Below, one piece after another: positions 3,593 through 55,718 of a DNA stretch of 64,000 nucleotides. Source of the DNA: Cenococcum geophilum 1.58 (taxonomy: Eukaryota; Ascomycota; Dothideomycetes; Gloniales; Gloniaceae); assembly GCA_001692895.1 (NCBI GenBank), contig KV748258.1, forward strand, positions 248,001-312,000, written 5' to 3'. Each line of letters opens with the position of its first letter. The stretch's first letter is position 1. Below the pieces are notes generated by a model. It was not told where the DNA came from, did not search any database, and saw only the letters and a program-made list of their open reading frames with translations. The position numbers were made by a program, and so were the translations under genes.

Positions 3593-3677
3593 ACGTTATG
3601 TAATAGGGCTTGGCATCTAAGAATCCGACTAATTAGATAACTTTAACCGCCGGTTAAAGTTCCTAAACATCTTAACG
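3593..3677 (-). other. Shared 3'-terminal hairpin module, partial (B1)
   Basis: It contains an inverted repeat with 10-base arms AACTTTAACC and GGTTAAAGTT around a 3-base loop (3639-3661). It is preceded by GACTAATTAGATAAC and followed by CATCTTAAC. The same block occurs in element C (9027-9077), Copia D (55666-55718) and, inverted, at 37388-37440. It lies between the end of the integrase frame and the polypurine tract. B1 keeps only the coding-side third of the module; the longer hairpin seen in C and D is absent. Confidence 0.75.
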
Positions 3678-3789
3678 ATATTCCGGTCACGTAATCGCAC
3701 TTTACCGCAATTTAACGGCAATTTGCCCTTACGTAGTAATGTATAACGGTTTAACTCTATAAGGGCTCCTATAGAGGATTAGGTATAAA

Positions 3790-6700
3790 ATCTCTACTTA
3801 AGCCCGGTTTCTATAGGTTCGCGTAGTAAAAGTCGCTAATTAGATCCTTTGCATTTTTAAAGTCTTTCCATAATTACTATTCTGGCTAATCTATATTAAA
3901 TCCTGTGTATATAGCTCTGTAGTAGAGCCGTCGTCCTCTACCTTTGCCAAAGTATTTAGAGTCGATAATTCGTTTAACAGTCCACTCCTTATGGTTTTTG
4001 TCTTTGTTCTTATCTCGGATTAGTACTAGTAGGGGTTTAGGCTATATCTGCCCTAATAAGGGGTTGGGCTAATAGAGGTGTAGTAGCCATGGGTGAAATA
4101 TAGGCTATATCCTATGGGTGGCTAGGGTAGGCGGGAGTTCTAGCTTATATGCGGCTCCTTTATTAATAACTTATTTAATTGGATAGGGGCCGAGGTTCTT
4201 ATAATTAAGTAACTTTATAGGTTTCTATATAGAGATATTACGTATATCTAGCTATACCTAGTCGCCAACACGTATCTCCGGTAGTGGCGTTCTATAACAG
4301 TTGGCGAAGTAAGCCTACTTTACTTAAGCCCAGGCCATTTCTCCCTTATAGTAGTTAAGTAGATTTTTTATACGGTCTGCATGCTAGTCGGCAAGTAGCA
4401 TCTTAAGGCGTTTTCTATATAGCAGTTTCTTATTAATAGGTTCTGGTGGCTCTATGCCGGATTAGGGGTAATAACCCTTATTTGCGAAGAACGGGGTAAG
4501 TCCTGTGGTGGTTAAGACATGGTTATTTGCTACGAATTTACCTAGTAGGAGGTAATCTACCCAGTTATCTTAACTATAGGCGACTACCTGTCATAGGTAC
4601 GCTTTTATACTGGCATTAGCGTTTTCCGGTTACCCGGCAGTTTTATAGTAGAAGGATATAAATATCTTAACGGAGATGCTAAGGCGTTAATAGATTCATC
4701 TCTATACATCGGAGTTAAATTATATGCCTCGGTCGGACGTAATTAAGTTAGGTAACCTATGTAGTCAGTAAACTTTACGGAGGAAGGCGTTAGTAATATC
4801 GCTAATAGCTACGCCTTCGGTTAGGATGTAGTGGCGCTCTTTTATAAGTCGGCATATTATCATAAGGATATTCTTATAGGTACGGCCGTGTCGTTTGTAG
4901 GGTAGTAGGTTAACAACGAAATCTATGGCGATATCCGCCTATCGTTATATAGGTACTAGTAGGGGGTATAATAATCCTTGGTACTTTATATTAAAGGCCT
5001 TAGCACGCTTATAACTATGGCAGGTACCTATAAAGCATTTAACTAAGTTTGTTATCTTAGGCTAGAAGTAGTATTAGCTAAGGAGCTTATAGGTTCCTCC
5101 TTTGCCTGGGTGGCTACTTAACCAGAGGTCGTGGGCCATTTAGATTAGTTGCCGTTATAAGTTTTCTAAGTTAGGGATAAATAGGCGGCCTCTGTAGTAG
5201 AGTCTGTTCTCTTTTACTTCTAAGGCTACTATATTAATCTAGCCTAGGCTTTAGAGGTTAGTAGATAGCGTACAGGCGCTAGCGGTCTTTGCGGTAATGA
5301 GTTAATATAGTAATGAGTTAATGTAGTAATAAGTTAATAGAGGTATTATATGCCGTAGTAATAAGCTTATTGATCTTAGGAGGTAACTCTAGTTCTGTAG
5401 TACAAAGCTAAGGTACTATTAGCTCTATTATGGGTAGTATACCTAGGGCCAAATTCCGTGCTTTTAGGATTATCTATTACTAGAACTGATTTTAGGGGTC
5501 TTCTTTTAACTAAGGGAGGTCTTATAAGCGGCGTGTTAGGCTATCCGGCTTAGTATTTTATACTCCCAGTCTATATACAATTTTAAAGTTAAAACTAGAG
5601 AGGAACTCGTTCTAGCGTGCTTGGCGTTGGTTTAGCTACTTTATAGTTATAAAGTATTTAAGGTTACAATAGTCCGTAAGGACTTTAGTTGGCTAATTAA
5701 GTTCTGCTAAGGAGAGTTCCGGTTAGAATTCCTTAAATATTTATATAATTGTGAGAAGTTCCTTATTATAGATCTTATAGTTATACTTTTATAGTATAAG
5801 CTTAGACGAGTAGAATGCGACTAGGTAGAGGAGGCCGTTGTCGCCTATTTGGGAAAGGATGCCTGCGTTAACGTGGTCTAAGGAGTCGGTTTTAAGGTAG
5901 AGTTATTATCCTGGTGCGAAGTAAGCTAGGATAGGTGCTTTAGTAAAAGCATTTTTAAGGTCTTAGAACGCCTTCTTGTATTTAGGCGTCTAGGTAAAAC
6001 GTAGGTGCGTTTTTCTTCCTTTTGCAAAAAGGCCCTTTATTCACATTATTGCTATAAGTGGTGCTACCACGCCTAAGAAGTTGTATATAAATTTCTAATA
6101 GAAGTTAGCAAAACTAAGGAAGGCTTATACGTCCTTAATGTAGTTAGGGGCTTGCTATTTAGTAATTGTGTATACTTTCTTAGGGTCTATACGGACACCC
6201 TTAGTAGTAATAATTAGTCTAAGGTATTTTACTTCTATGATTAAGAATTTACACTTTTTTAAATTAATATGAAGTCCTGTGTCCCTAAGGCGCTCTAGGA
6301 CTTTTTAAACGTGCTTAGTATATTTAGAAGGGTCGTCTCTGTAGATAAGTATGTCGTCTAGGTACGCAAAGTAGAAGTCATTAAGGTAGTCCTATAAGGC
6401 GTTATTAATGTAGCTTTAGAAGGTGCCTGGGCTGTTATATACACTAAAGGGTATAACGGTATATTCGAATTAGCCGAAGCGTAATGCGAATGCGGTTTTC
6501 CATTTATTACCTTCCCGTATTCGGAGATAGTTAAAGGCGGTAATAATATTGAGCTTAGTATAGATTTTAGCTTAACTAAGCCGCTTAAGAGTTTCACGTA
6601 TGAGCGGTACGGGGTATCGGTTCTTGATTGTGATAGCGTTAAGTTCTCTATAGTTAATATAGAATTAGATACCTCCTCCTAGCTTCTTAGTAAGAAGGAT

Positions 6701-8590
6701 AGGGGCGGCTGCTAGGGATATGCTGGGACGAATAAATCCTTTATTAAGGTGTTTGTTGATATACTTTTTTATAATTAGAAGTTCGTCTTTAGATATTAGG
6801 TAGGGTCTCTTATAAGGTGGCATTTTTCCTTATTTAATATTAATAGTATAGTTATCGGGTTAATGTGGGGGGAGTGTATCTGCGCTTTTTTGTAAGCATA
6901 TATTAATAAAGTCGTGGTATCTCTTAGGGAGGAGCTTACGGAGTTCTTTATTAGTAAGTCCTTTTTTAAGTTTTATAAACTTCTTAAAGTCTAAAGGTAA
7001 AGTCTGTGGAGTTCCGCAGGGGCGTTGTCTTTTAGAAGGTTAACTATATCTATTTTATTACTATAGAGGACGTGGTCTTATTCTTTGTTAAGCTTATATA
7101 GTTATAATTAGGAGGCTATAGCAACGGTCTAGCTTTTTCTACGTGCTATACAGTAGAAGGCCGCGGCACTTATATAGTGGTAGTTGGTTATAGGTGGGGT
7201 AATAAGGGGTTTCTTAGGTTAATATCCTGGTGAGTAAATAGCGGCGGCTAGGCTATGTCCTAAGCAAGTCTCTCTATAGTATTTAGAGTTAAAGGTTACT
7301 TCTCTCTTTTCCTAGTTAATAGCGGGGTTATATTATTTAAGCCAGCTTATTTTAAGGATAATAGGGTAGTTGGCAAGTAGTATAATATAGGCCTAGAGCT
7401 CTTTCTGGTGCCCATTTATATCTAAGTAGAGTTATACTACGTAGGTAATCTTCTATGCGGTAGAACTACCGTTAGTAAGTTATAGGGCGCGGGCTTTAAT
7501 AAGGGGTAAGGTAGATAGGCTATAAGTGTACACGAATTAGGTATCTATAAATTTATTAATAGCTCCGCAGTTAATTATAGAACGGCTTTTATATTATTTT
7601 TTAGCAGTAGTTCCTATTATAGGTAAAACTATCTATTTCTGTCCGTTTATCTTTACTAAGTTATCTATTAAGCAGGCCGATATATAGATCCCTCTATTAT
7701 TAGGGCGTCCTAACCCGCGACTTAGGGTAGGGACTTAGCGTTTTTCGCTTCCGTATCCGATTCTACTACTATTACTGCATCTTCGTCTTATACGGTAGTG
7801 GCGCGTAGTGACGTATTTAGTGTTCGGGGCATTAGGTTAGGTATTAGACGGCGGCTTTTAAACCTAGCTATTGGGTAGTTTAGGTTATCGCAATGATAGC
7901 CTTTTTGACGGCATCTATAGCAGCGTCCTAGTTTCTAAAGTAGCTCGCGCTCTCCATCTAGGAGTTTTTGCGGAAAGGTTAGTATAGAGAGGTCGATATT
8001 AGCTCCCGTGGTACTTAAGGTAGTAGGCGTTGGTAGCTTAGTATATATAGGTTTAGTAGGCCTAGAGGGCTTCTATAGAGAGGTCTTTAGGTAAGAGTTA
8101 GCGGTAGTAATCTAATTTAGTCGTTGTTTGATTTTCTGTAGAGCTGCTACTATATTATAAATGTTGTTGTAGTTATAGCTAGCGGCTGCGTAACTAAGGC
8201 AATAAGTAACTTTTTTAAGGAGGTCCTCCTAGTCTTTAATATTGTCTTAGGCGAGGGCTCTGGTATATTTCTAGAATTTAATATAGAATTCGTTAAATAA
8301 TTTGGTAGGGCTTATCTTTAGGGCACGTAGTTTAGCTTAGTTAGTAGCTAGTAGGTCGTGGTTACGGTACATTAGGTTAAGATTATTAAGGACTTCTTAG
8401 TAGAACTGCTACTTCTAGGGGCTACTAGTCTCCTATTAGGCGAAGAGTTTGTTAAATAGTATACCTTTTATTCGCCTAATAATGTAGCCGATCTTAGTGT
8501 CTTCCGTAGGAAAAAGGCAGGCGCTCTAAATTAGTTTCTTGCGGATTTATATCTTCTAGTGGCTATATTCCTTGCGGTTTCCCTAAAAGA
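3790..8590 (-). pseudogene. Family B pol relic with chromodomain integrase
   Basis: In minus-strand order there is a gag zinc knuckle near 7910-7860 (CYRCRQKGYHCDN, with the third and fourth zinc ligands changed), then protease. RT has its catalytic block near 6395-6330 (FAYLDDILIYRDD; the Asp pair is intact here). RNase H and integrase follow. The C-terminal chromodomain is near 3990-3800: EWTVKRIIDSKYFGKGRGRR, then LYYRAIYTGFNID and a KDFKNAKDLISDFYY helix. In-frame stops are frequent and mostly TAG/TAA at Gln positions. The chromodomain places family B among chromoviruses, which integrate into modified chromatin. The gag 5' part continues right of element C at 15515-16372. Confidence 0.88.
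5290..5345 (+). repeat. Short tandem repeat inside B1 integrase
   Basis: Three tandem units resembling AGTTAATATAGTAATG lie within the integrase frame. The corresponding position in B2 (17925-17955) has only two units, so copy number varies between family members. The unit is short and probably arose by slippage. Confidence 0.6.
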
Positions 8591-8595
8591 CTAGG

Positions 8596-8782
8596 TGTCA
8601 CAGTGCTGCAATAAAGTAGACTGAATAACTACGTTGTGGTATAAAGAGGGGAAGAAGGTGGAAAGGGGATATTGTATATAAATAGTAGGGCCGGCCGCTA
8701 AGTCGCTAGTGGTGGGCTAGCTAATAGTAGGGAACAGTACGAGACAGTATGAAATAGTATACGTTAGGTCAGTGCTATAACA
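8596..8782 (-). repeat. LTR of family C (3' LTR)
   Basis: It begins TGTCACAGTGC and ends GCTATAACA, keeping TG...CA termini. It matches 15323-15509 base for base except for scattered C/T and G/A transitions of the RIP type. The shared GGGCCGGCCGCTAAGTCGC block is GC-rich. Confidence 0.95.
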
Positions 8783-8870
8783 GTACTCCTCTCCCCCAGA
8801 TGGTTTAGTCCCTAAACTAAATAGATAACTTAAAAATAGGCAGTGTATGGGGTTGTTTATTTTCTACCGC

Positions 8871-9077
8871 AAAGATATTAGTTCTGCTTACCGCCCTTAA
8901 CTAAGCTAATGGCGATTTTCTATGCCGGGCATGGAAAATCCTAATTGGTTAGTTTAGTGAGTAAGGTTGGCAGAACTCTATACCGCTACCTAAATTGGTC
9001 CGTGTGGCGTTTCTTGGCAAAAATTTGGCTAATTAGACAACTTTAACCGCCGGTTAAAGTTCTATGACATCTTAACT
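8871..9077 (-). other. Shared 3'-terminal hairpin module, full (element C)
   Basis: Three inverted repeats follow one another. The first is an imperfect fold of about 97 bases, 8881-8977, with arms AGTTCTGC and GCAGAACT and a tip of GATTTTCTATGCC against GGCATGGAAAATC. The second is a weak one around 8980-9010. The third is AACTTTAACC/GGTTAAAGTT at 9039-9061. The block ends in ACATCTTAAC. It lies in the 3' untranslated part between chromodomain and polypurine tract. Copies: 55517-55718 in Copia D, partial in B1, inverted at 37388-37515. No protein is suggested. Confidence 0.8.
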
Positions 9078-9124
9078 ACCACAAATTTTAATGCGGTGGT
9101 CGGCCGCGACCTTAGCGTGACTTT

Positions 9125-12100
9125 TCCTTATCTTATACCCAGTCTGGGGGTTCTGGCTTCTTAAGGTATTGCTTATAAAAGTATTATACAGCTTATTTAT
9201 AACCCTTTAGGTCTTCCTCTAGCTGCTAGGTTATATCCTTATAATATTTCCATTTAATCTTATAAGTTAGGCCCTAGGGGTCTTTGTCGTGTACATTAAG
9301 GATTTTCTTAAACTCCCATTTATCTTCTATGTTGCCGTTATTGTCTCTCTCTACTACTTGTCCTTGTATATTACGGCGCTCTATAGTATTAATATTTGCT
9401 TAGCTAGGGATCTCTTTAGTAGCTTAGAGGCGGACCTTAGATGTATAAAAGGATTTATTTACTTAGATATAGTCTAGGAGGTCTACTATAACTGCCCCTT
9501 AGTATACTGCAAGTACGGGGTATAGGCTGTCCCATTTATTATCCTATTTCTTCTTAGGTCTATTTATCTTTATATTTTCTAAGCTAACTATAACTATATT
9601 ACCTTTATAGAATAACGCGCTCTTATCCCTATGGGTATTAGTATTATCTTTATAGCGTTACTATGAAATTTGGGCTAGGGCTTTAAGCTGTATTAATATC
9701 CGCTTAAAGCGGTTGGCCATAGAGTCTACGTGGAAGAACTCCTTCTTTACTTATGCTAATAGTGTTAGTGGGCGGGGGCTAGTAGGCTTAATTCTAAGGC
9801 GAGGGTTAAAGCTATAGTTTGTAAAAAACAGGGAGATGCCTATACTCTTGTTAACTTAGTTATTCGTAGCAAACTTAGCGAGCGGTAGGTAGTTAACCTA
9901 GTTATCCTATATAAAGCTAATAAAAGCATAAAGGTATTTATTTATGGCGGCGTTAATAATTTTAGTTTGGCCGTCCGTTTCTGGGTACTAGGCTAAGCTT
10001 AGTTATAAGGTTATTTTAAAGCGTTTACTTAGTTATTGCCAGAAGTCGCTAATAAATTATATGCCGTAATCGGAGATAATTGTGCTTAGTGCACCGTGGA
10101 GCTTATATACGTTATTAATAAAGCTATTAACTAACTTCTCTATTAAGAGTTCTGTTACTAGAACGAGGTGTTATATTTTAGTTAGGCGGTCTATAATAAT
10201 AAGGATATATTTATATACCTTACCGTGGCGTTAGTATACTAGTAGCGTTATAATATAGTTAATTAAGATATTGGTCTATAGGCGGGCGGGTAATTCTAGT
10301 AGCTTTAAAAAACCAGGCGGGGTAGAATAGGGGGTCTTAGTGCGAAAGTATAGGGCATAGTTTTTAATAAAGGTAGCCGTAAACTAGGAGATTCCTAGCC
10401 ACTAGTATATTCGGTTTAAGAGGTTAAGAGTTTTAACCTAGCTAGGGTAACTAGCGGGGCCGCTGCTATAAGAGCGATGGGTAACTTTTAGGTGGAGGTC
10501 TAAGGCGTTAGGGATAAAGAGATGTTAGTGGAAGTAGATCTATCTGTTAACGATACTATATTCTAACTTATCGCAACAGAGTAATTTCCTAATTTTCTTT
10601 AGCTAACGGCGAGCTTTCCGATTACGTAGGGCTGCTACTATATCTCTTATGAGTTTATTCTCCTAGTATCCTAGCCAGATTAACTCGTCTAGTAACTTTT
10701 TAGCTATTTTAGGGTCTAGAGCGGCTATAAACTCCGCGTCATTAGAGTTACGGGACTTGTATAGTAATTCTTCTAAGATTATAGGGTTAACTTTCTGGGG
10801 CGGTATAACGACTTGGGCTTAGTAGCGGAGGCGTTTGTTATTAGCGTCCTTAGGCCTTATTCCTGGTAGCTAGCTTAGGGCGTTAGGGAGTATAGCTTTG
10901 CTACTAGGTCTATATATAATTATAAAGTTAAACTATAAAAGGAACTCTGCCTACTAGACTTGGCGCTAGTTTAGCTGCTTAGTAGTTATAAACGTCTATA
11001 GGTTCTTATAGTTAGTAATAATTTTAAATAGCTCCTTAGTCCCTTGCAGCTTAGGACGCTATTCCTCTAAAGCCTTAATAATAGCTAGGAGTTTTTTATT
11101 ATAGATCTTATAGTTATATTCTGGCGCGGAGTGCTTTATAGAGAAGAATGCGACTAGTTTTAATTTTCTATTATTATTGTGCTGGGAAAGAACTCCGCCG
11201 GAAGCCCAATTTAATACATCTATCTCTACTACTGTTTTCTTCGTGTAGTTATAGTATGTTAGTACTAGTGCTAAAGTAAAGGCTCCCTTAAGGGCCTTAA
11301 ACGATTTGGCTTGTTCTAGTCCCTATAGCCATCTAATATTCTTCTTTAAAAGTTTTATTATAGGTATAGCGATAGCAGAGTAGCCTTAGATAAATTATTA
11401 GTAGAAGTTCGCGAAGCCGAGAAATTATTATAGTTCTTTAATTAATGTCGGGTCCTTCTATTCCTATAAGGCCTATATCTTCTTAGGGTCTATAGTTATG
11501 CTATTAGTTAAGATAATTAAGCCAAGGTATTTTGTTTTAGTAGAGTAGAACTTAGACTTATTAATATTAATCTAAAGTCCAGCATTGCCAAGTCTTTAGA
11601 TGACTTTATTTATATACTTAGTATACTTAGCGCGTATTTTAGAAAAGATAAGGACGTTATTAAGGTAGGCAGTACAGTAGTTATTAAGGGCGTTGTGTAG
11701 AATATGGTTAATATAGTTTTAGAATATAGTAGGTGCGTTATAAAGGCTAAATAGTATAACTAGTATCTTATAGAGTTTAAACCGGGTAATAAATGCTATA
11801 AGCTACTTATAGCCCTCTGTAATCCGGATCTGGTTAAACGCAGCAATTATATTAAGTTTAGTAAAGTACTTAGCGCTATAAAGTGCGTTAAGTGTCTCAC
11901 GGATTAGTAGCAGTAGGTATTAATTCTTAATAGTAACTGTGTTTAGGCCTTAGTAGTTATAGCAGATTTATACACTACCGCTAGGCTTAGTAGCGAGGAG
12001 GAGTAGTGCGGTAGCTAGTNAGGTTNATTNGCGGATAAAACCCTTATCTAGCATCTTATTAATCCACTTCTTTATATACCTAAGTTTAGTAGGTAAGAGT

Positions 12101-15100
12101 GATCTATTTTTATAATATAGGGCCTAGTTTCTAGGGGTGATTTTAATTTTATAGTCCTATAGTTGGTAAGGGGGCAGCTTATCTATATTTTTAGGGAGGA
12201 AGTGCTTAATATATTTACTAAACTCCTTTAATAGGCGTTGTAGAATGTCTTCGCGGGTTAATCCTGGTTTACCTTTTAGAAAATTTTTAATATTAGTGTT
12301 AACTATCTTCCAACGTAAAAGCTCGGGTTTAGTTTTTAGATTTATCTTAAGGAAGTTATAGAAATAGGGGGGAAGCGCTTTATAGGCTTCCTTTATTATA
12401 TAGTTGCCTTCCACCAGCCGGCGGAAAGACCTTTTTAATAGGTTCGGTACTTCTATTAGGCCTATAGGCAGCTCTTTAAGCAGCTGTCGGTGTTTATCTT
12501 ATTTAACTAGTTCTACTAGCTCCGCTATATAGATCCTTATTACCTTTATGTCTTTTTATTTATAGAACTGGGTAAAATTAATAGTATAAGTGTATTTAAT
12601 ATCGTCTAGGTTAGGGCGTGTCTAGCTCTCTAGTGCTATGGCTAGGCTAGTACGGCTCGGTCGGCCTAGGGGGGCGGAAACAAGGCGGCGGCCCTGTACG
12701 GTACGCGCGGGAGATAGGTGTGAGGTTGGGCGTTACGGTGGCGCGGTTTTTATTATCTAGGTCTTAGTAGTTCTATAGCCAGTCCTTACTATAACGCGAG
12801 CTATAGTATATGTATATAGTATATAGCTTAGTTTTAGGTGTCGGGCTAGGCGGCTAGGGTTTAAATAGTGCCTAGGTTAGGGTTAGTTTCTTAGTAATAG
12901 CGGCGCGAAGCGGATCTTCTTCCTTAGTCTCAGCAGGGCTAGCTAGCCCGTCGTTTTAGTCTTAAGTACTAGGTTAGTCCAGTCTTCTACTATCTTATTT
13001 CTTTGCAGCTGTATAAGCTCCCCTTTATTAGGAACGTCTTTTACTATTAGGGCTTTATATATAGTTCTAGGCACTAGGCTTAGTAGTGCTAAGTGTCTAT
13101 ATAGGGCGTCCCTGCTAACGTCGGCTATCCCCTATAGGAGGTAGTGACTAAAGTAGTAGTCTAAGTTAAAGTAGATCTTAAGTTTCCTAAAGCTGGGACG
13201 GGGCTTATGCTTCTGAAGCCAGGGTATACCTAAGATAATTAGGGTAGTAGGCGAGAGTTTAGTAATAAAAAAGAGCATGGCTTTAGTATAGAGGCCAATT
13301 AACATTTAGGCGGTGAAGTAGTCTGTAATAAGCGAAGTTAAGATACTGTCTATAAGGCGCAGTGGCCTAGGTGCTAGCAGCTTCTTAGTTATAATATTAT
13401 ACTTTTTTATAATAGACTCTGTATTAGCAAATGCTATTATAATACTACCGGAGTTTACTAGACTTACTATATTAATATAAACTTAGGGGTATAGGTTATA
13501 TAATAAGGAGAGTTGGGTTTAAATAAGGATTAATTTTTTATTACTATTTGCTGATCTAAAATTAAGTAGTAGTTTACTAATAGAAAGGACTAATTAATCT
13601 AGTAATAGGGACCTAATCTTCTCGTCTTCCTCCTTATATGGTTTAGACCCTTGGGCGTAACTTAGTCTAAGGGTCTGCCTTTTAACGACTAGGGTATAGA
13701 GCTGTCTTGGCGGGGCGGTCTAGTGTCCGTCTAGCTAGCGGTGTCTATTTCTGTTTTGGTTAGGGTATAGGAAAATAATACCTTACTAATAACGTGGCCG
13801 TATTTATATTCGCTAGCGCGAAGTCGCTAATACTAGGCGTTATTAACGGGTTAGGCTCCTATATAGGGTATAGTTTGGAGTAACTAAGCCATAGGATTAA
13901 AGGGGGGGGGTTATCCGCCGCGGCTATAATAGGCTCCGCGGTTACCGCGTTTATAATGGACTCTATAATTACCGCGTCCATGGTTATTTATTTACGTTAT
14001 TTAATAGGGTAGTATTAGGACTGGGTTTACTATCTTAGTAGGGTTATAGGCATCCTTTTAGTAGCCGGGTAGGCTATAGGCAAGGTATAGTCTATTATTA
14101 ACGCGGCGCTTGCGCTCTATATCTAAGATTCTATTAAGGTCTATAGGTTTTCTAGTTACTACTAGGGTTAGGGTTAATATAGGGGCAGGGGCTTAGGCAG
14201 GTAGGCGGTAGTTAACGTTCTTTTTAAGATTAGCTTAGTATATATGGTTTGCGAGGTTCTTAGCGAATATATCTATCTACTTACTCCAACCTATATAGTT
14301 ACTATCGTTAATTTTATAGGCTAGTTTAAGTACTAGCTCTTCTATCTTTGGAGAGATAAACTTTTAAAGTAGGTCCACCTTCTATTTATCTGTTTTCTTG
14401 GCGCGGACTATTAGCTTATTAAGCTCTCCCTTCTAGGACTAGTAATTACGCTCGCCTTAGGGGAAATAGTTAAGCTTATTTTTTGCGACCTAGGTTATAT
14501 TAAGGACCTTATAGTGGGCAGTAAGGTCTTTAAGCATATCTTCCTTAGTAGGCCATTTCCACGTAGATATATTATTTGGGTTCTTATATATAAGCTCTAG
14601 GCCCTACTTAATAAACTCATAGGCCTTGTCCTTTAGTATGTCCGAGATATAAAGGATCTAGAACTAAACTATGTTAAAGTAGTCCTAGTCCCGGTTAAAG
14701 ACTCCCTTAATCTTAATATGCCAGGTCTTAAAATTAGCTTATCATTTTAGCGGGGTGCCTTTTCCGCTAAATATTGGCGGGTCTTTAGATCTCCGTTTTT
14801 TTGCTAGGTTACTACCATTATTATAGGGGTTGATTATTTTAGAACGGTAATAGTTTCTGCCTAAGAGTTAATAGTTCCTATCTAGGAAGCGGTGAGGGCA
14901 CTAAGGTTTTTATTAGCTTTCTTATTGGCGGTGTTTGTGTTATATATATACTATAATCCTGCTTTAATATTATTAAGGAACTTATTGGTATAGTCGACAA
15001 GGGTAAAGTAAGCTTTGCTGGGCTTAAAGGTCTTAAGGTATAATAGGGAGCGGCGGATTGTCTACATAATATTAGGGTATATCTCTGTAAATAGGTCTGC

Positions 15101-15290
15101 GAAAACGTTATAGGGGTTCTAGGTTTCGGCCATTTCGGCGTTATTAGTGTCGCCTATCTAGGCGCTAGGTAAAAACTAAGGATTGTTCTAAGACTATGCT
15201 AGGGACGTATCGGTTTTAGTAAAGGTACACATAGGTCGCGATTGCTCTGGGGTGGAGGTTAATTGGCTAGGGTATAGGGAATTAGTGATC
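9125..15290 (-). pseudogene. Family C gag-pol relic with chromodomain
   Basis: In minus-strand order, gag occupies roughly 15290-13300 and the protease region about 13280-12800. The RT N-terminal part is near 12420-12150, containing FLPKNIDKLPPY, the leader typical of Gypsy RT. The RT catalytic block near 11690-11640 reads CTAYLNNVLIFSK, so both catalytic Asp have become Asn. RNase H and integrase follow. The chromodomain near 9290-9140 includes DKWEFKKILNVHDKDP and LTYKIKWKYYKDIT and ends with LKKPEPP. Numerous TAG/TAA codons interrupt the frame. An 86-codon open piece at 12157-12414 is only the longest uninterrupted part of pol, not a separate gene. Confidence 0.87.
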
Positions 15291-15322
15291 GCGATAGGGC
15301 GCAAATTAAAGATACCACAAAC

Positions 15323-15509
15323 TGTTACAGTGCTGTAATAAAGTAGACTGAATAACTACGTTATAGTATGAAGAGGGGAAGAAGGTGGAAAGGGGGTATT
15401 ATATATAAATAGTAGGGCCGGCCGCTAAGTCGCTAGTAGTGGGCTAGCTAATAGTAGGGAACAGTACGAGACAGTATAAAATAGTATGCGTTAGGTCAGT
15501 GCCGTAACA
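15323..15509 (-). repeat. LTR of family C (5' LTR)
   Basis: This is the second copy of the 187-bp LTR, beginning TGTTACAGTGC and ending GCCGTAACA, followed at once by CTAGG, the right copy of the target duplication. Transcription of element C would start here and run leftward. Confidence 0.95.
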
Positions 15510-15514
15510 CTAGG

Positions 15515-16372
15515 GGATTAGGGTAGCGTATATTAGACCCTACGGTAGCAGTTTAGGTCTAATTATTATGGCTTTTATTATTGCTACTTTGGTAGGGGTT
15601 CTTATTAGGTAAAGCTGCTTAGCGCTAGCCCTCCGTTAAGCGTTAAGTAGGTAAAGTTACTAGGGGCGTAAAGACTTAGGTGGCGTTATATGTAGTAAAG
15701 AGGTATCTAGCGTTGTTATAAATGTACTTATTAAGCTAAGATTATAGGTATTTAATTATGCCTTCTTTTTTAGTAACTGTAGTAATTAGTACAATCTCAG
15801 CCTTCTTTAACTATTGGACGTCGTGTTTAGATACATAGAGGTTATCTTTAGTTTCTTAACGTGTGTTATCGGTGAGCGCCTTACGAGCTTATAGGTCTTA
15901 GATAATATCGCAATCTTAGGTAGTACGCATCTCGGCTTATATAAGCTTTAGGTAGTAGTTCTATAGAAGGCGGTAGTATTTATTAGGGTCTTGTGCTACT
16001 ATTTTTACAAACATCTTAGCGTCTTGTATTTTAATTTTAATAGGTAGTAGCCCTTCTGTTTACTTGTCCGTAGTTATATAGTTAATAAAAGATAAGATAT
16101 TATTAGTGTCCGTCTCCTTAGGGGTTAAGGCTAAGGCTAATAAATTAAATTCTCCTGGGATTGATTGGTGTTGTAGGTTAAGTATAGGTATTAGGTTATT
16201 CTTTAGGTTTAATATAGTAGCTAATAAGGAATATTGTCTTACTATTATGGGTTCCTTAGAGGTATAAAGTAAGGTAATTCGTAGACACGCTGCTTCTAGC
16301 AGCGCCTATAGTATTACAGAGACGTAGAATTGGTCGTAGGCTAAGCGTCGGTAGTAAAAAGGCGCAACGTAA
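15515..16372 (-). pseudogene. Family B gag N-terminal relic (B1)
   Basis: This is the 5' part of B1 beyond the C insertion. It aligns with 26855-27708 of B2 over its whole length. It would encode the start of the capsid-like protein and the leader. RIP stops are dense and no clean start codon can be defended. It ends at the 5' LTR at 16373. Confidence 0.75.
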
Positions 16373-16564
16373 TGTTATGGTACGGGGGCAGTGGCTACAA
16401 GCGTATGTATTCGAGGAGTCTACAAGACGTTGCGCGATCGATCGTAAGGGTTAAGGGCGTAAGGAGGTGATATACCTACGCGTAGCTGACATAAGCTGTA
16501 CACAAGGTGTACGCGAGAGCACGGGGCTCTCCTATGGAGGCCCCTACGGTGGGGTTCCGTAATA
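16373..16564 (-). repeat. LTR of family B (5' LTR of B1)
   Basis: This 192-bp copy matches 3282-3473. It starts TGTTATGGTACGGGGGCAG and ends CCGTAATA, followed by TCAGG (16565-16569), which pairs with 3277-3281. It is the promoter-bearing LTR of B1. Confidence 0.95.
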
Positions 16565-22724: not shown

Positions 22725-25700
22725 ATAGGGGTTATCTTTAAACTAAGGAAGGTCTTATAAGCGGCGTATTAGGCTATTAGGTTTAGTACCTTATACTCCT
22801 AGTCTATATATAATTTTAAAGTTAAAACTAGAGAGGAACTCGTTCTAATATACTTAGTGTTAGTTTAGCTACTTTATAGTTATAAAGTACTTAAGGTTGC
22901 AATAGTCTGTAAGGACTTTAGTTAGCTAGTTAGGCTCTACTAAGAAAAGTTCTAGTTAAAATTCTTTAAACGCTCGTATAATTATAAGGAGTTCTTTATT
23001 ATAGATCTTATAGTTACACTCTTATAGTATAAGCTTAGCCGTCGAAATCGGACTCTGTACCTGTACGTGGTGACGGCTACGAACCTAGTCTTCGAAGTTC
23101 AGATCCAGAGCCAACGCAGAGACGTCGCACAGCGTGCGGACAGGACCGGTGGTGGTTGTAGGCGTTAAGGGCGGTGGTGAAAAATTTTCAGATGGTGAGA
23201 TCTTAAAAACCACTACTGTTGGCTCTCTACAGTACGATGACTACTACATTCTCCTATCTAGGGCACCTGTACAATCCAACATGGATACACAGTATTCGAT
23301 ATCATCCCCCGTCCCCTAGTAGAAAGTATTAACGACCTTATATTAACGAATAAGTAAACGTAAACGAATAAACAAACAAGCAAATATACGGCCCCTCCTA
23401 ACCCCTAGGGCGATCGCCCGCGGAGCATGCGGTCACTCGCCGTACTACTATAATACTACTAAAAGCAGTAGCTAGATAACCCCGTACGGTTTTCCTTATC
23501 TCCTCTTAACGGAGTAGTGCCCTTAGAGAGGGCCTAGTGACTAGGGCCTAGGCATAAAAGATACCTAGATACATACACACACATCCCGCTTTTGTCTTTT
23601 AGTATTAGGATAGTAGAACGGATAAATCCCCCTTACGCCTTCAATAGGCCTTAGGGGGGGGGGAGGCATGGCGTATATGGCAATGGTTAACAAGAGACAG
23701 TATATAGGGGGTGGTTAAGATATAGGGTATAACTATAAGCGTACAGCAATCGATCGGCAAGGCCTAGCTAGGACGTAGTGAACCCTAGCTCTGGATAAGC
23801 TAGAGAAGGAAGCAGTGGTTCCTAAGGAGTTCGAAACATCCAAGGAGGAGGACGTAGCTATAGGCCCGTAGGGCCGCGGCTACGTACAGGCATGGCAATT
23901 CGGGGTTTTTCATCCTACTAAGGTGGCTTATAGGGTTTTTCCTCCCCCAATATATTAGGGGTTTTCTTCCTGTAAATTTATAAGTTTCCCCTGTGTATAG
24001 AGTAGTCTGCGTGGGCCGCATAGGATCCGTATCAGACGTTAAGTAATAAATAAATTAATTATAGTATAAGCTTAGATAAGTAGAATGCGACTAGGTAAAG
24101 GAAACCGTTATTACCTATTTAGAAAAGGACGCCTACGTTAATGTGGTCTAAGGAGTTAGTTTTAAGATAAAGTTATTGTCCTAGTATAAAGTGGGCTAGG
24201 ATAAGTGCTTTGGTAAAGGCATTTTTAAGGTCTTAGAACGCCTTCTTATATTTAGGCGTCTAGGTAAAGCGTAGGTACGTTTTTCTTCCTTTTATAGAAA
24301 GGCCCTTTATTTATATTATTGCTATAAGTGGTGCTACTACGCCTAAGAAGTTATATATAAATTTCTAATAGAAGTTAGCAAAACTAAGAAAGGCTTATAC
24401 GTCCTTAATGCAGTTAGGGGCTTGCTATTTAGTAATTATATATACCTTCTTAGGGTCTATATAGACACCCTTAGTAGTAATAATTAGTTTAAGGTATTTT
24501 ACTTCTATAACTAAGAATTCGCATTTCTTTAAGTTAATATAAAGTCCTACGTCCCTAAGGCGCTATAGGACCTTTTAAACGTGTTNNGTATGCTTAAAAG
24601 GGTTATTANTATAAATAAGTATNTNGTCNAGGTACGCGGAGTAGAAGTNATTAAGGTAGTTCCGTAAGGCGTTATTAATATAGCTTTAAAAGGTGCCTGG
24701 GCCGTTATATACGCTAAAGGGTATAATAGTATATTTAAATTAGCCGAAGTATAATATAAATACAGTTTTCTATTTATTACCTTCCTGTATTCAGAGATAG
24801 TTAAAGGCAGCAATAATATTAAGCTTAGTATAGATTTTGGCTTAGTTAAGCCGCTTAAGGGTCTCCCGTATAAGCGGTACTGGGTATTAGTTTTTAATTA
24901 TAATAGCGTTAAATCCTTTATAGTTAATATAGAATTAAATACCTCCTTTTAGCTTCTTAGTAAGAAGGATAGGGGCGGCTGCTAGTAATATGCTAGGACG
25001 AATAAACCCTTTATTAAGGTGCTCGTTAATATACTTTCTTATAACTAAAAGTTTGTCTTTTAATATTAGGTAGGGTCTCTTATAAGGTAGCGTTTTTCCT
25101 TATTTAATATTAATGGTATAGTTATTAGGTTAATATAGGGGGAGTATATTTACGCCCTTTTATAAGTATATATTAATAAAGTTATAGTACCTCTTAGGGA
25201 GGAGCTTGCGGAGTTCTTTGTTAGTAAGTCCTTTTTTAAGTTTTATAAACTTCTTAAAGTCTAAAGGTAAAAGTCTGTAGAGTTCCGCAGGGGCGTTATC
25301 TTCTAGAAGGTTAACTATATCTATTCTATTACTATAGAGGATATAGTTCTATTTTTATTAAGCTTATATAGTTATAATTAGGAAGCTATAGTAACGGTTT
25401 AGCCTTTCCTACGTACTATACGGTAGAAGGCCGCGGCACTTATATAGTAGTAGTTAGTTATAGGTAGGGTAATAAGGGGTTTCTTAGGTTAATATCCTAG
25501 TAAGTAAATAGAGGTGGCTAGGCTATATTCTAGGTAAGTCTCTCTATAGTATTTAGAGTTAAAGGTTGCTTTTTTCTTTTCCTAGTTAATAGTGGGGTTA
25601 TATTATTCGAGCTAGCTTATTCTAAGGATAATAGGGTAATTAGTAAGTGGTATAATATAGGCTTAGAGCTTTTCCTAGTGCTTATTTATATCTAAGTAGA

Positions 25701-28383: not shown

Positions 28384-28418
28384 TTACCCCCCCTCCGCAA
28401 AAGCCTGCCCTCAGGCTT
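28384..28418 (-). other. Polypurine tract and small hairpin of A2
   Basis: TTACCCCCCCTCC (28384-28396) is the complement of a polypurine tract. It is followed by a perfect hairpin AAGCCTG / CAGGCTT (28401-28407 and 28412-28418) with a 4-base loop. It occupies the 3' untranslated end, as the hairpin module does in families B, C and D, but the sequence differs. Confidence 0.7.
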
Positions 28419-31500: not shown

Positions 31501-33790
31501 CTACTAGTTCCTTATCTATAAGCTTACTTTCTTGTCCACTAAGCTCGTTTCCCTTTTCCTTAATTATTTAATTAATTTCGTATAAGCTTATTATAAAGGT
31601 GACGGTATTAGGCTAAACTAAGTTCTAGTAGAATCTTACGGCACTAATGCAGCAAATATTAACTAGTGGGAGGTCCGCTGGTTTTCTTATAGCTATTTTC
31701 CGGACCGTATTTTACAGTTTAGGGTTTATAATCTTTCTTAGCTCCTATTCCATCTTCCGCAGGTTATCCCTCTAATCTATTAGTTTAGTATAACGTTTAA
31801 CATCCCTTACTATTCTTTGTGGCTATATAGGGCCTAAGCTCTCTATAGGGGGCTTTTTTAGGTTACTACTAACTTCCTAGGCCTTTGATGCGGGTGGCGT
31901 GACATAGGTAGTTTAAGGGCGACGTAGTATACAGATCTATTACGAATTAAGCTATATATCTTTCTTAAAGGCCTAGTCCTTATATATAGCATTAGCCTAG
32001 TAAATAGTATTAATCTAGGGCTATATGAGGTTTTCCATTGTAATGCTGATTTCTTTTATAAAAAAAGGGGTTGGGGGTAGGGTTTTAGGCCAGGTAAGCT
32101 GTCTACTCTATATATTAAGCTATAAGCCTAAATAGGCTAGCCATTTTCGCCTTAAGATTATATTATGGCTACCTAGGTCCGTAATAAGGAAGGGGGCGTT
32201 ATACTACCTTCGTCCGTTAACACGGAGGTAAATCCGCAAGATAGTTGTAATGGGTAGTCCTATCCGCCCATTATACCCGCGGATAGGAATTAGTTTAAGC
32301 AGTTCTTTAATAGGTGCATTTAGAAAGTTAGCCAGCTTTACGGTATACTGGGTGTCTATTAAGGTAAAGGCATTTACTTTAAAGTTAGCTAAAGCAGAGG
32401 TTAAAACTTAGTATCTATTATAAAATAAAGTATAAGGGATAGTGCAGCTTTTTTACTAACTAGCTGACCCAGATTAACATCTAATATATTAATCCCTTTT
32501 AACCCTAAAGAGGAGTCTTCCTCTAGGGTTTCTCTTTTTCCGACTCCGCGCTATCCTCCTAGATTAATAGAACCTCGTCCGCTTTTATATTTATTAGGTA
32601 ATCCTTTATATAGTAACCTTTCTATCTATAAGAGAAGCAAGCTCCTTAATCACTAAGGGCCTATATATAGGGGTTACTATATATAGGCTAAGTATTCGCC
32701 GGACCTATAGTAGGGCTAGCCGCACGGCTAGCTGCTAAATTGGCAGTAGGCTATACGAGTAGTGCTATAGGGGTTACTGATCGTGCCGGGGCATTACGGG
32801 CCGTTCTTATATTACTTATAGTCTGATTTAAAGGGTTTCTGGCTTTATACTATTCGGCACATGCCTTAATTTAGTAAAGGCCTTAGTTAATAGCTAAGCA
32901 CTAGTCCGTAAGTTCCTTTAGCGTCTATATAGTAGTAAAAACTAGTAGTACGGCTCGCTATAGGTCTAGGGTAAGCTTATTAAATAGGTCTGGCATTAGA
33001 TCTTTTTAGGGAATTTAAGCCTAGCCGGCTAGGTGCAGAAAGCGGGTCTAAAAGGCCAAGAAGGTCTCTGTTATTTTTATATTTAGGCTTTTATAATTAA
33101 ATTAGGCGTTCTATACTTTAAAGGGGTCCTTATAAATAGAAGACAGGTAGACAATTATCTCTTCTTTAAAGAGGAAGGGCTCTGCTGAGTCCTATGCGTA
33201 CCGCGGACATAGGTGCGTCTATACGTCCCTACCGGTACGGCCGAAGACATAGGCCATTTTAGCCTAAGTAGTAGGGAAGTGGTCCATATTAACTTTAAGC
33301 TTATCCTATAATTAAAGCTTCCAATTATTAAATATAGGGTCGGTTCTATCTATAAGTAATAGGGAGTCCACGACCTTTACGGACCGCGATAATACTAATG
33401 CTATATATTAGGCTAGAGCCTTAAGGACCGTAGTAAGTCTTTAGGTATCTAATGATTCCTTACTAGGCGTAGGGGGTTCTCTAGCTTTAAGCAGCTCTTA
33501 AAGTTGTTTAATTTTGGCATTAGCTGCTATAAGCTCCACTTAGGAGTTTAAGTCAGTTACTGTTTCACTATTGGAGGTATTTAAGGGTCCTATAGCTGCT
33601 TTGCCGGCTGCTATATTTCTTAGTATTATGGTACGGTTATTAGGGTAACCTTTAGTAGGATTCTATAGGGGTTTTGGTCTGTGCGTATTCTATAAGTCTT
33701 ATTGTTCTTTTCTATTCTTCTAGTTCTAGTAATATTCTTTAGGTCTAATTCTATGTTCTATTCTAGTTCGTGGTCCGTAAATATATTTAA
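28540..33790 (-). pseudogene. Family A gag-pol relic, full length (A2)
   Basis: The capsid-like gag is near 33500-32800 (AYVFGRTGRDV, IVYLSSIYKDPFK, LAFQTRFLHL). The zinc knuckle near 32650-32590 has Cys and His changed to Tyr. The protease region is near 32400-32050. RT lies at about 31600-30700 with YLDNI in place of YLDDI near 30920. RNase H and integrase follow to about 28800. The integrase C-terminus reads ERPSYKLDY, AGPYKVLKKIGNLYKVKL and VFSLDKL (28990-28780). The chromodomain near 28725-28545 has EIKEVLAYKLVRKTLKYRVS, KGYNLDPT and FIGSPYKL. Scattered TAG/TAA codons fall at expected Gln and Trp positions. The order defines a chromovirus Gypsy polyprotein. Confidence 0.92.
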
Positions 33791-33830
33791 GTTCCTTCTT
33801 AGGAAGAAAGGGTAGTTAAGCTTTAGATAA

Positions 33831-34032
33831 TGTTAGCAACTTAGTTAATTAAGGCACGAGCACGGCAAGAGGGACGCGCAAGCCTGTATAATTGGTAGTC
33901 TATAAACAAAGGATCTAAAGCTAGAGAAAGGAAAGGAGAAGAAGAGCAGCGCCGGTTGAAGTAGGGTTCTTTTATACGGTCCTCTAGTCACGTAACCGCG
34001 AAGTTCTACTAAGTTCTGCCAGTGCCGTAACA
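33831..34032 (-). repeat. LTR of family A (5' LTR of A2)
   Basis: It begins TGTTAGCAAC and ends GTGCCGTAACA, with intact TG...CA. It is followed by ATAAC. The open frame crossing it on the minus strand is a by-product of GC-rich LTR sequence. Confidence 0.95.
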
Positions 34033-34037
34033 ATAAC

Positions 34038-35333: not shown

Positions 35334-36360
35334 ATAATAATAATAATAATTCTTCTTTGATTAACGTCTGATACGGATGCTATCTAGCCCCACGCAGACT
35401 ACTCCGTACACAAGGGAAAAGTAATATTGACGGGAAAAAACCCTTGCTGCTGGGGGGGAGGAAAAACCCTATGAGCCACCTCAGTAGGATGAAAAACCCC
35501 GATTTGCTATGTCCGTCCGTAGCGGCGGCCCTGCGGGCCTACGGCTACGTCCTGTCCTCCTTGGATGTTCGAACTNCTTNGNAACNACTGCTTCCTTNTC
35601 TAGCTTATNNAAAGCTAGGGTTNACTACGTCCNAGCTAGGCCTTGCTAATCGATTGCCGTACGGTCGTTTCCCATATCTTNACCACCCCCTGTATGCTAT
35701 CTCCTATAACCATTGCGTTGCCATATACGCCTTGCCTCCCCCCCCCTAGAGCCACCGAAGGCGTAAGGGGGATTCATCCGTTCTAACCACCGTAATACTA
35801 ATAAGCGAGCGGGATATGTTGTATTTGGGTATCTTTTNTNCCTANGCCCCAGCTAGGCCCTTCCTAAGGGTTACNACTCCGTNGAAAGAAGACAATGGGG
35901 AAAACCGTGGGTCGCAATCTAGGCTGCTAGGTAGTATTTGGTAGTAAGACGGCGAGTGACCGCATGCTCCGCGGGCGATCGCCCTAGGGGTTAGGAGGGG
36001 CCGTATATTTGCTCGTTCGTTCNTTNNTTCGTGCGCGCGTTCGTTNNTNNATNTGAGGTCGTCGATGCTTTNAGTCNAGGTTTGGGGATGTTTATTNAGT
36101 NCCACATATCCACGTTGGATCGTATAGGTGCCCNAGATAGGAGAATAGTNGTAGTCGTCGTATTNTAGAGGGCCAANAGTAGTGGTTTTCAAGATCTCAC
36201 CATCCGAAAATTTTTCACTACCGCCCTTAACGCCCACAACCACCACCAGGTCCTGTCCGCACGCTATGCGACGTCTCTGCGTTGGCTCTGGGTCTGAACT
36301 TCGAAGACCCAGGTTCGTAGCCGTCACCACGTACAGGTGCAGAGTCCGTTTTTGACGGCC
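35334..36360 (-). mobile_element. SINE-like or short LINE element, copy 2 (1.0 kb)
   Basis: This complete inverted copy of the element at 23039-24058 has the target duplication AGAGAAAGAAAATA (35320-35333 and 36361-36374). The 3' end carries a (TAA)n tail (plus-strand left side). The 5' end reads GGCCGTCAAAAACGGACTCTG. The 3' region shares CGTCTGATACGGAT and the CACGCAGACTACTC block with copy 1. Many single N calls (35577-36147) interrupt it. The conserved peptide GVKGGSEKFSDGEILKTTT appears again, then frame-shifts relative to copy 1. This shift argues against a maintained protein. Confidence 0.82.
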
Positions 36361-36850: not shown

Positions 36851-37385
36851 AATATGTTCTCTATACCGGTAGTAAGATCTATATATAAATAAACCTTTAG
36901 TTAAGCTAAAGGGATTATTACTAGTAAACGTAATAGACTATTAATTAACACGATTAAAACAGATTAATATTAGAAGTAGTAGTTAATTAAAGGCCTTTTT
37001 ATTAAGTAGTTTATATAAGGTTAGAATATAGATAAGGAGTCCAATTAATAGAATAATAGGGTATATTATATATATAGACAAATCCTTAAGGAAAAGGAGG
37101 AGTCTATATATAAGGTAAGGAAGGGTTTTCCCTAAGTATATATAGCTTACGTACCTTATAAGTAGGTTATATATAAGTTACTTATGCCTTAAAGCAATAT
37201 AACTATCTACTTAGGTTTTACCTAATAATGCCCCCCTCCCTCTTTTAAAAGGCTTGTTCTAATTCTTTATATACTTAGGCCTTAATAAAACCCTATAGAC
37301 ACCTTAATAAGGAAAAAAATTAAAGGGGAAAGATTGTTCTAATTTTGTGTATAAGGAGATAGGCAGTATATATACGCGGCGCGAA
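36851..37385 (+). other. Gene-free AT-rich stretch
   Basis: No coding signal that I recognise. It contains a C-rich run, GCCCCCCTCCCTC, near 37229-37241, which could be a polypurine tract complement of a lost element. Nothing else is supported. Confidence 0.3.
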
Positions 37386-37387
37386 GA

Positions 37388-37515
37388 TATTAAGGAACTT
37401 TAACTGCTAGTTAAAGTTATCTAATTAGTTAGATTTGCCTTACCTAGACTTCTCTGCATTTAACTAAGCTAATAGCGATTTTATAGCTGGTATATAAAAT
37501 CCTAATTAGTCTATT
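37388..37515 (+). other. Shared hairpin module, inverted copy
   Basis: Relative to elements B1, C and D this copy is reverse-oriented. The AACTTTAACT/AGTTAAAGTT hairpin comes first (37394-37416), then CTAATTAGTTAG, then the GCTAATAGCGATTTTAT...ATAAAATCCTAATTAGTC fold (37463-37510). If the module marks a retrotransposon 3' end, it belonged to a plus-strand element now lost. Confidence 0.65.
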
Positions 37516-37519
37516 TAGG

Positions 37520-45630: not shown

Positions 45631-45631
45631 C

Positions 45632-53858: not shown

Positions 53859-53889
53859 ATATCAAAAATATCAAAAAAGAAGGTCGTTT

Positions 53890-54840
53890 CCTATTAAATC
53901 AGGCGTTAGTAAGGCTCTAAATTGAGCTTGTATTTTCGTACGTGTCCCGCAACACCTAAAGTCATTAACGAAATCTCAGCACTATATACTAAGCATGTCG
54001 GCTCTTCTATGTTGAGTTTTAATTACGTTAGGCTAGCTCTAAATTATAGCAAGAGGCAGAACGCACCATACTACTACGCCACAAGGACTTTGAAATGTAA
54101 TTTTATAAATTTAACTAAATTATAACCCCTTTTTAAACCTTATGATTAAACCAGATCCTTAGGGAGAGATCCCTGTATCAAATTTTAGGGAACGTTTGGT
54201 TACGACTTTAGATTAAATCTAAAGGCCATAGAATATATCCGAGCTAAAGCTCAAATCTAATTCTAATATAATCATTTAGTTAATTTAGCGACTTTCTGAT
54301 CCGAAAGCTTCTCCAGATCGGTAAGCGCGTTAAATTCGCAAGCTATACCGTATATAGAATCTAAATTTATAAATATAGGGTATCTTTATTACTATAGTGG
54401 CTACTATAGCAACGGGGGCGCCATATTTCAGTGAGCAGTTAATCTGCTATGTCTCTGCCACTGCAGTAGCAAGGCATCTTAAGTTTAATACCACGCCAAG
54501 TATTATAACTTTCCTGCAGTAACTAAGCAACCCTAAACTAAAGTGATTATAGAACTTACCATACTACTACGCCGTAAAGGCCCTTAGTTATAGTCTTATA
54601 AATTTAATTAAAATATAAACACCTTCCTAAATCTAATAATTAAATATTTCCACGTGCAACACTATGCTAAGAATCACAATATAGATTGCTTAGACATAGC
54701 TTTACTATAATACAACGGCTCTACGCTAATTAATTAATCTATAAGAGATTTAGGTAGTAAAATTACTGCTAAAAGTTACTGCCCAGATCCTGGCCGACAA
54801 ATACCCACAACTATAATCTTAGTAAATGGCAAAAAGTATA
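53890..54840 (+). other. Non-coding stretch with a diverged duplication
   Basis: Two related blocks about 480 bp apart (near 54057-54125 and 54540-54618) share CCATACTACTACGCC and TATAAATTTAA(C/T)TAAA. They suggest an old tandem duplication. The 67-codon frame at 53922-54125 lies partly in the first block and resembles nothing known. No gene is supported. Confidence 0.4.
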
Positions 54841-55201
54841 TAGCAGTATTAAGACAATAGTAGGACAATATAAGATAATAATAGGATAATATAATATAAT
54901 GGTAGGATAATAATAGGATAATATAATATAATAGCAGGACAATAATAGGATAATATAATATAATGGCAGGATAATAGTAGGATAATATTAGGACAATATA
55001 ACACAATAGTAGGGCAATAATAGGACAATATAACACAATAGTAGGACAATATAACACAATGGTAGGATAATGTAATATAATAGCAGGATAATATAACATA
55101 ATGGCAGGATAATGTAATATAATAGCAGGACAATGTAATATAATAGCAGGACAATATAATATAATGGCAGGATAATATGGGATAATATGGGACAATATAA
55201 C
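54841..55201 (+). repeat. Minisatellite of 11- and 21-bp units, left part
   Basis: Units of the type GGAYAATATAATATAATRGCA and GGAYAATARTA alternate for 360 bp. Element D is inserted in the array; 61279-61325 is its right remainder. A 150-codon minus frame of YPAIILHY-like repeats spans it but arises from the unit and is not treated as a gene. Confidence 0.85.
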
Positions 55202-55374
55202 TGTTGGTGTCATAGGGTAACTTACCAATGCTACTTAAGTAGACACAGTGAATGTTAATTATAATGCTTATTGTTAAGAATCAGGGGGTGGGTGAGGAAC
55301 CTAAGGTTCCTCACCACGCTAGTGCCGCGGCGACACGTGACGACACGTGACGACCGCTTGCCTCATTCCCGACA
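55202..55374 (-). repeat. LTR of Copia D (3' LTR)
   Basis: It begins TGTTGGTGTCATAGGG and ends TTCCCGACA. It contains a hairpin with 11-base arms GTGAGGAACCT/AGGTTCCTCAC (55292-55314) and a tandem CGACACGTGA repeat (55331-55350) with CACGTG cores, a typical bHLH/bZIP factor site. Unlike the internal region it keeps many CpA and CpG sites. Confidence 0.95.
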
Positions 55375-55516
55375 CTAGCAACTCTTCTTTTATAGTTGCC
55401 ATCTATATACACTTGTAGATTGCTACTATATAAAGATACAAAGCTAAGGAAAAGAAGAAGAAGAAATAAAGGGGAAGAAATAGCGTAGGTAGATGTACGG
55501 GTTTATGTAAAGATGT

Positions 55517-55718
55517 TAGTTCCGCTTACCGCTCTTAGCTAAGCTAATGGCGATTTTCTATCCTGGGGATAGAAAATCCTAATTAGCCAGCTTAATAAAT
55601 AGCGTTAGTAAAACTCCACACCGCCACCTAAATTAATTAGGTATGGCGCTCTTAGCAAGAATCTAACTAATTAAATAACTTTAACCGGTGGTTGAAGTTT
55701 TATAAGATCTTAACTTCT
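55517..55718 (-). other. Shared 3'-terminal hairpin module, full (Copia D)
   Basis: Same order as in element C. There is a long imperfect fold with arms starting AGTTCCGCTTAC and ending GTAAAACT, with a tip GATTTTCTATCC/GGATAGAAAATC (near 55550-55577). Next comes a hairpin CGCCACCTAA...TTAGGTATGGCG, then AACTTTAACC/GGTTGAAGTT (about 55677-55699), ending AGATCTTAAC. It sits between the RNase H end and the 3' LTR. Confidence 0.8.

Follow-up and report, generated by a model that had tools for sequence, protein, structure and literature searches.

Within a 64,000-bp stretch of the genome of Cenococcum geophilum 1.58 (contig KV748258.1, positions 248,001 to 312,000; called the window below and numbered from 1), a non-coding block of palindromes lies between the end of the coding region and the 3' long terminal repeat (LTR) of retrotransposons from both the Gypsy and the Copia superfamily. 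The explanation we favor, and consider rather probable, is that LTR elements carry this block as a 3'-terminal cassette that has been moved between families, with template switching by reverse transcriptase (RT) as the likeliest route. The cassette, which comprises two palindromic parts (P1 and P2), would be copied along with its host element and not independently. RT would switch templates between the RNAs of different elements near their 3' ends, and amplification of the resulting chimera would leave hundreds of copies with the same junction.

The genome under study (177.19 Mb) is marked by repeat-induced point mutation (RIP), with a TpA/ApT ratio of 1.73 and a (CpA+TpG)/(ApC+GpT) ratio of 0.51, and just ten open frames of at least 110 amino acids between stops are found in the window. 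Differences within a family are almost all transitions; copies of the Gypsy element C, for instance, differ in the module by 9.8% transitions versus 0.2% transversions. Therefore, transversions were used as the main yardstick of divergence.

A 3' end common to Copia F1 and Gypsy F1b

The central evidence comes from the Copia family F1 and the Gypsy family F1b, which have a common block around P2, reaching from -34 to +65 relative to the hairpin and ending sharply on both sides (one pair of copies is 95% identical across 100 columns). Across approximately 82 block columns of six F1 and five F1b copies, transversions amount to 0.7% between the two families, 0.0% within F1 and 1.0% within F1b, as compared with 7.9% and 8.3% between F1b and its Gypsy relatives J and H. 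In the 100-300 bp beyond the block, F1 and F1b are unrelated (19.7% transversions, 24.5% gaps). The block pattern matches 922 times in the genome (three mismatches allowed), the Copia junction 589 times and the Gypsy form 301 times (two mismatches each), while the reversed controls give no match. That hundreds of copies have the same junction indicates a single event, which was followed by amplification. Judged from these comparisons, one transfer of a 3' cassette across the superfamilies, with a fixed junction, is well supported, and it is for this pair only that vertical descent is excluded by the divergence values.

The assignment of both partners is based on their pol sequences. The pol piece of the Copia element D of the window lies 1339-1343 bp ahead of the F1 junction (ten pairs, picked by eye), so by sequence likeness F1 shares its pol with D. 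The coding end of F1b matches that of X1, a minus-strand Gypsy element of the window (28182-34037) that is related to F1b, lacks P2 and was used for comparison only, with 79-83% identity over 345-364 bp in four of five copies and over 236 bp in the fifth. Since the X1 type has Gypsy domains, F1b is taken as Gypsy: a relative of X1 at 610-822 matches PF17919 with 32.7 bits, above the cut-off of 29.8, and the integrase SH3 domain of X1 at 28715-28873, the 3' end of pol, scores 29.4 bits, just under the cut-off of 30. The first bases of the F1b block continue the pol frame to a stop and thus appear to be the last codons of a Gypsy pol (read by eye), which makes Gypsy the likely donor and a transfer from Gypsy to Copia the likely direction. 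We also considered X1 as a clean empty site for F1b. This was rejected, as approximately 20 nt stand in X1 where F1b has approximately 110 nt, which is a replacement (by eye). Two forms of F1 were seen by eye: the longer has a second polypurine-like tract within the Copia 3' end, and the shorter seems to be the longer one deleted between AGAAT repeats (L103, L070, L076, L095 and L100, L072).

The P2 hairpin pattern occurs 2689 times on the forward and 2701 times on the reverse strand of the genome (reversed control: one each); the pattern is nearly palindromic, so that most sites are counted on both strands. The 100 listed matches fall within the initial 3 Mb of contig C1 (towards the end, plus-strand matches only) and gave 57 distinct sites. 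Their hairpin is fixed by the search pattern, so that invariance within it reflects the choice of sites. The flanks of 56 sites were retrieved with the pattern, and the 57th (L035, family D) came from a separate related-locus search; such searches scored the nearest 40 of 1835-3372 candidates and are uninformative on rarer contexts. According to their flanks, 53 of the 57 sites fall into ten repeat families, at the 3' end of an LTR element in 47 cases and of the LTR-like family G in six, and the remaining four belong to two unclassified repeats, K and N (two sites each). Among the 56 pattern-derived sites, the Copia families F1 and D together account for 12, followed by F1b (7), G, I and B (6 each), J (5), C and Cp (4 each) and H (2). 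For the P1/P2 and constraint comparisons the family labels were set by hand, which splits F1/D as 11/1 instead of 10/2 by flank. No LTR pair was seen for G among the 40 matches listed, though its end is LTR-like, and in family I an LTR-like stretch follows a purine tract 3' of the module (by eye). The two K sites match each other over 75 columns at 87%, and the two N sites (L161, L162), which have no match among the references, do so over 444 columns at 73%; the unclassified repeat N carries a complete P2.

None of the 57 sites is solitary, an argument against present mobility as a miniature inverted-repeat transposable element (MITE). The first-pass annotation, made from the letters of the window alone, had proposed to record whether copies lie in LTR elements or stand free, and had offered a small hairpin transposon as one explanation. 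LTR or LTR-like families hold nearly all sites, the four in unclassified repeats being the exception, and a hairpin transposon as a present activity finds no support in this count or in the flanks of C and D, where duplications are no better than chance. As a distant origin such a transposon is possible. The same annotation called the sharing between Gypsy and Copia unexpected by descent; the sharing itself is confirmed and descent is excluded for F1/F1b, but the case of C and D is weaker.

The module in the elements of the window

LTR pairs and 5-bp target duplications of the elements B, C and D were obtained from a self-comparison of the window and from related loci. Element C (8596-15509; LTRs 8596-8782 and 15323-15509; duplication CTAGG) is a Ty3/Gypsy element coded on the minus strand, with a Gypsy-type RNase H (PF17919) at 11062-11322 on that strand (E 2e-21). 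It is nested in element B (3282-16564, minus strand; LTRs 3282-3473 and 16373-16564; duplication TCAGG), which in turn lies in an X1-type element. In B, the minus-strand match to PF17919 at 5792-5902 (E 7e-5, 23.3 bits) remains below the Pfam cut-off of 29.8, and its RNase H shows 45% identity to the C domain across 82 amino acids (E 8e-14). From the sub-threshold Pfam matches and this likeness, B is very probably a Gypsy element. C-rich minus-strand features, read as reversed polypurine tracts, abut the left LTR of B (3474-3486) and lie 3 nt off the left LTR of C (8786-8797).

Element D (55202-61278, minus strand; LTRs 55202-55374 and 61106-61278) has no clear polypurine tract beside its left LTR. 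Across 49 amino acids, the RT piece of D shows 49% identity to a piece at 40 kb of the window, which, with stops masked, aligns weakly to an RVT_2 protein of the same genome (E 0.008). The open pieces of D gave no Pfam match (RVT_2 included), and the RNase H of C as query found no match in D at E-values up to 1. With 173 bp, TGT...ACA ends and the 5-bp duplication ATAAC, the LTRs of D agree with those of fungal GalEa Copia elements, described in the available text of PMC5445492 as TGT...CA, 138-311 bp long and flanked by a 5-bp duplication. Beside the 5' LTR, at 61068-61105 on the minus strand, D carries the Conserved Hairpin Site of GalEa, CTGATTAGT and ACAGAACAG separated by 20 nt, with one extra mismatch besides the known A/A. 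By the similarity of its RT piece, the missing match to Gypsy RNase H and the GalEa hairpin at the 5' end, D is classified as Copia. Its minus-strand coding is likewise read from the RT piece and the leader with the hairpin. D is inserted in a 21-bp tandem array (54820-55207), which resumes at 61279 beyond the element.

The block described in the first-pass annotation for C, D and, in part, B, together with a fourth, inverted copy, is real in all four places. The whole block spans 8871-9075 in C and 55509-55713 in D (78% over 219 aligned columns), the inverted copy spans 37384-37518, and B has the tail part only. Searching with a tail-part profile gives 3607-3674, 9010-9074 and 55647-55712 on the plus and 37449-37384 on the minus strand with E-values of 8e-16 or better, which are flattering since the 44 rows of the profile include these four copies; weaker matches in the window are the same palindromes on the other strand, and then one at E 0.005. 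The location between coding end and 3' LTR was also correctly recognized: coding on the minus strand, the LTR pairs and the polypurine tracts of B and C make the left LTR, which adjoins each module, the 3' LTR, and the module starts 88 nt (C), 134 nt (D) and 132 nt (B) from it. Plus-strand elements with the module beside a right-hand 3' LTR were ruled out by the LTR pairs, the duplications and the minus-strand domains.

The module is not one unit of consecutive hairpins, as had been assumed, but consists of two separable parts, which occur apart and in differing relative orientations. P1 is a long imperfect hairpin (8871-8992 in C, where its plus-strand orientation is antisense to the element; 55509-55630 in D, plus strand), and P2 consists of small hairpins around CTAATTAGATAACTTTAACCGSCGGTTAAAGTT (9010-9075 in C and 55649-55713 in D, both on the plus strand). 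C and D contain both parts in one order. B (P2 at 3606-3675, plus strand) lacks P1, as do the Gypsy families F1b, H and J, whereas M has P1 only. In G and I the two parts have the opposite relative orientation; the copy of family I in the window combines a P2 that is inverted against the other three (37384-37451, minus strand) with a P1 remnant of opposite orientation (37460-37518, plus strand). The left end of P1 has 729 matches in the genome, and the flanks of 20 sampled ones were assigned by eye to C-type or Cpp (14), D (1), G (3 or 4) and M (2).

The sequence CTAATTAG, which forms the core of the GalEa hairpin motif, is present in P1 and P2 as well; the window shows no notable enrichment of it (12 occurrences versus 8.1 expected). 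Rfam gave no match at gathering score in the window. As a side observation, the LTRs of C hold a motif GGCCGCTAAG..CGCTAG.. (8689-8728 and 15416-15455, weak matches to the P1 profile), which is also present in Gypsy J LTRs and at the 3' end of Copia F1. At L087:1-35, a copy of Gypsy H is seemingly inserted in the middle of a P2 hairpin, with ATAACTTTAAC joined directly to its LTR (by eye); the palindrome may thus be an insertion target. Elsewhere in the window, a 1-kb inverted pair (23038-24042 and 35361-36359; 80% identity) has a higher G+C content than its surroundings (0.465 at 23-24 kb).

Pairing pattern and origin of the module

The first-pass annotation considered the arms of the hairpins as preserved by compensating changes. 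The tips it quoted, ATGCC/GGCAT in C and ATCC/GGAT in D, are correct, and their difference was rejected as proof of structure because RIP hits both arms (CA opposite TG). In 27 copies of P1 with 34 pairs, 90.0% of the cells are paired, versus 88.0% in shuffles and 50.0% with partners slid by one column. Changes on both sides occur in six of the 34 pairs versus 6.6 in shuffles (405 of 500 shuffles are as high). Double-changed cells number 26 versus 13.6 in shuffles (none of 500 as high), an excess that related sequences may show without structure. Since RIP can alter both arms of a palindrome, double changes of the C/T and G/A kind, which make up the rest, are no proof of selection, and a switch of base class, purine for pyrimidine, is seen in a single pair (alignment columns 54/60). 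This pair contributes 13 of the 26 double-changed cells, with G-C, A-T or G-T in 13 copies and C-G or T-G in 14, and is unbroken in all 27; the class switch could be due to selection or to palindrome correction. The compensating changes are thus not borne out, and the structural claim for the module is weak.

For the pair C and D, transversions in the module are 3.8% (C-D), 2.8% (Cp-D) and 1.9% (Cpp-D), and 2.3-4.6% among the Gypsy elements C, Cp and Cpp, the last represented by one copy. On the coding side the values are 10.2% (C-Cp), 10.3% (C-Cpp) and 2.6% (Cp-Cpp), and on the LTR side 1.1-4.9% among the three. Because LTR side and module diverge alike, the module is not specially conserved relative to the LTR side. 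In a tree of 31 full modules, Copia D joins Gypsy Cpp against C and Cp (100/99). The sharing between C and D fits an older exchange, one inserted unit or constraint each. In addition, D matches H at 81% over 47 columns and F1 matches Cp at 91% over 34 columns, in both cases a Copia 3' end against pieces of a Gypsy LTR. Copia 3' ends therefore look like a patchwork, for which such short matches are weak evidence.

MITEs are short palindromic elements with high copy number and short inverted ends. P1-P2 could originally have been one of them, approximately 205 bp long with ends AAGATRTTA, which inserted repeatedly into the 3' non-coding parts of LTR elements, where it does the least harm; its copies would then have been amplified with their hosts, partial ones being the result of decay. 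The C and D units carry these 9-bp ends (by eye), the part shared by C and D exactly spans them, and orientation varies between families, as independent insertions would give. We nevertheless regard this origin as unlikely. Besides the lack of solitary sites, the matches flanking the unit are 5 nt in C and 3 nt in D, and 72 of 300 random spans show matches of at least 5 nt; P1 and P2 each occur alone with constant limits of their own, the end on the other side being absent in P2-only families, and the F1-F1b block extends approximately 30 bp beyond the unit. A somewhat less unlikely, yet still doubtful, alternative is that selection maintains the palindromes as a cis-acting signal, either an RNA hairpin or a DNA-binding site, which many families kept or regained. 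In the 18 nt ahead of the hairpin, outside the search pattern, B, C, D and N show no transversions and nine of twelve families at most 2.0% (D with one site; H, K and N with two each), the pair 54/60 switches from G-C to C-G without being broken, and C and D fold better than shuffles (z -4.94 and -3.94). On the other hand, H, Cp and K diverge by 4.6-19.4% in the same 18 nt, whose conservation fits constraint or recent spread alike; a standard pair is missing in 18 of 27 P1 copies at two stem positions and in 13 at another; the inverted copy has a z of only -1.68, with 14 of 200 shuffles equally good; and both the LTR-side divergence of C, Cp and Cpp and the Gypsy ends without P2 (see below) speak against such a signal.

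Exchange between DNA copies by nesting, deletion or gene conversion, with no RNA step, we judge to be improbable as well, even though nesting is dense, as with C in B in an X1-type element, and a Gypsy H copy apparently sits within P2 at L087. The limits of the F1-F1b block at the end of pol and, in the longer F1, at a polypurine-like tract favor reverse transcription; read by eye, they are suggestive only. Several points weigh against a cassette moved by template switching. Recombination of nested DNA copies would leave much the same end state, and we infer the switch, as well as any benefit of the palindromes, from DNA sequence. The part shared by C and D is exactly the P1-P2 unit, which also fits an inserted unit; the module tree also allows D as outgroup; and orientation is reversed in family I. 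Among 20 sampled out of 547 pattern matches to LTR ends with a polypurine tract, three have P2, and 17 Gypsy ends (14 of the X1 type, three others) lack it; since most sampled elements of one Gypsy group are without P2, the cassette is not needed. We still prefer the transfer of a 3' cassette by template switching. A wider form of it, in which 3' ends are a common pool from which even families this distant renew theirs and the palindromes act as Gypsy/Copia switch points in co-packaged RNAs, kept for a shared step of the life cycle, appears rather doubtful.

Relation to known systems

The Gypsy and Copia superfamilies are generally considered to have separated long ago. If the precise transfer of a 3' end between them is true, both meet during copying, at least occasionally, and non-coding ends may have a history unlike that of pol, a point relevant to classification. 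Other isolates offer a test of the claim, with transversions as the cleaner yardstick of divergence.

The GalEa Conserved Hairpin Site resembles P1-P2 as a short non-coding hairpin of fungal Copia elements, and D carries this site. According to the available text of PMC5445492, it is found in five species and is conserved over 33-62 bp even across families, and a value of 10.4% is given for GalEa in Cenococcum geophilum. As described there, it follows directly after the 5' LTR and lies within GalEa Copia, whereas P1-P2 is located at the opposite end and occurs in Gypsy as well. The 3' motifs of plant Sireviruses resemble P1-P2 in being conserved beside the 3' LTR, and include multiple polypurine tracts and an inverted repeat (PMC2829016). 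They belong to one Copia genus, the inverted repeat spans the LTR border, and the part of that source available to us describes no sharing with Gypsy. MITEs within LTR retrotransposons are alike in shape, but the module lacks solitary copies among the 57 sites and target duplications above chance.

In the literature found, which was mostly open-access and in part available as excerpts, there is no 3'-end transfer between Gypsy and Copia. Template switching of LTR elements is known to create chimeras via reverse transcription, as we propose here, and the published cases, as far as covered by the consulted parts of PMC5668417 and PMC1950507, concern single families or Angela-like Copia complexes, not Gypsy and Copia. 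A 3'-end transfer across superfamilies therefore seems to go beyond the recombination within families or within Copia complexes that these sources describe.

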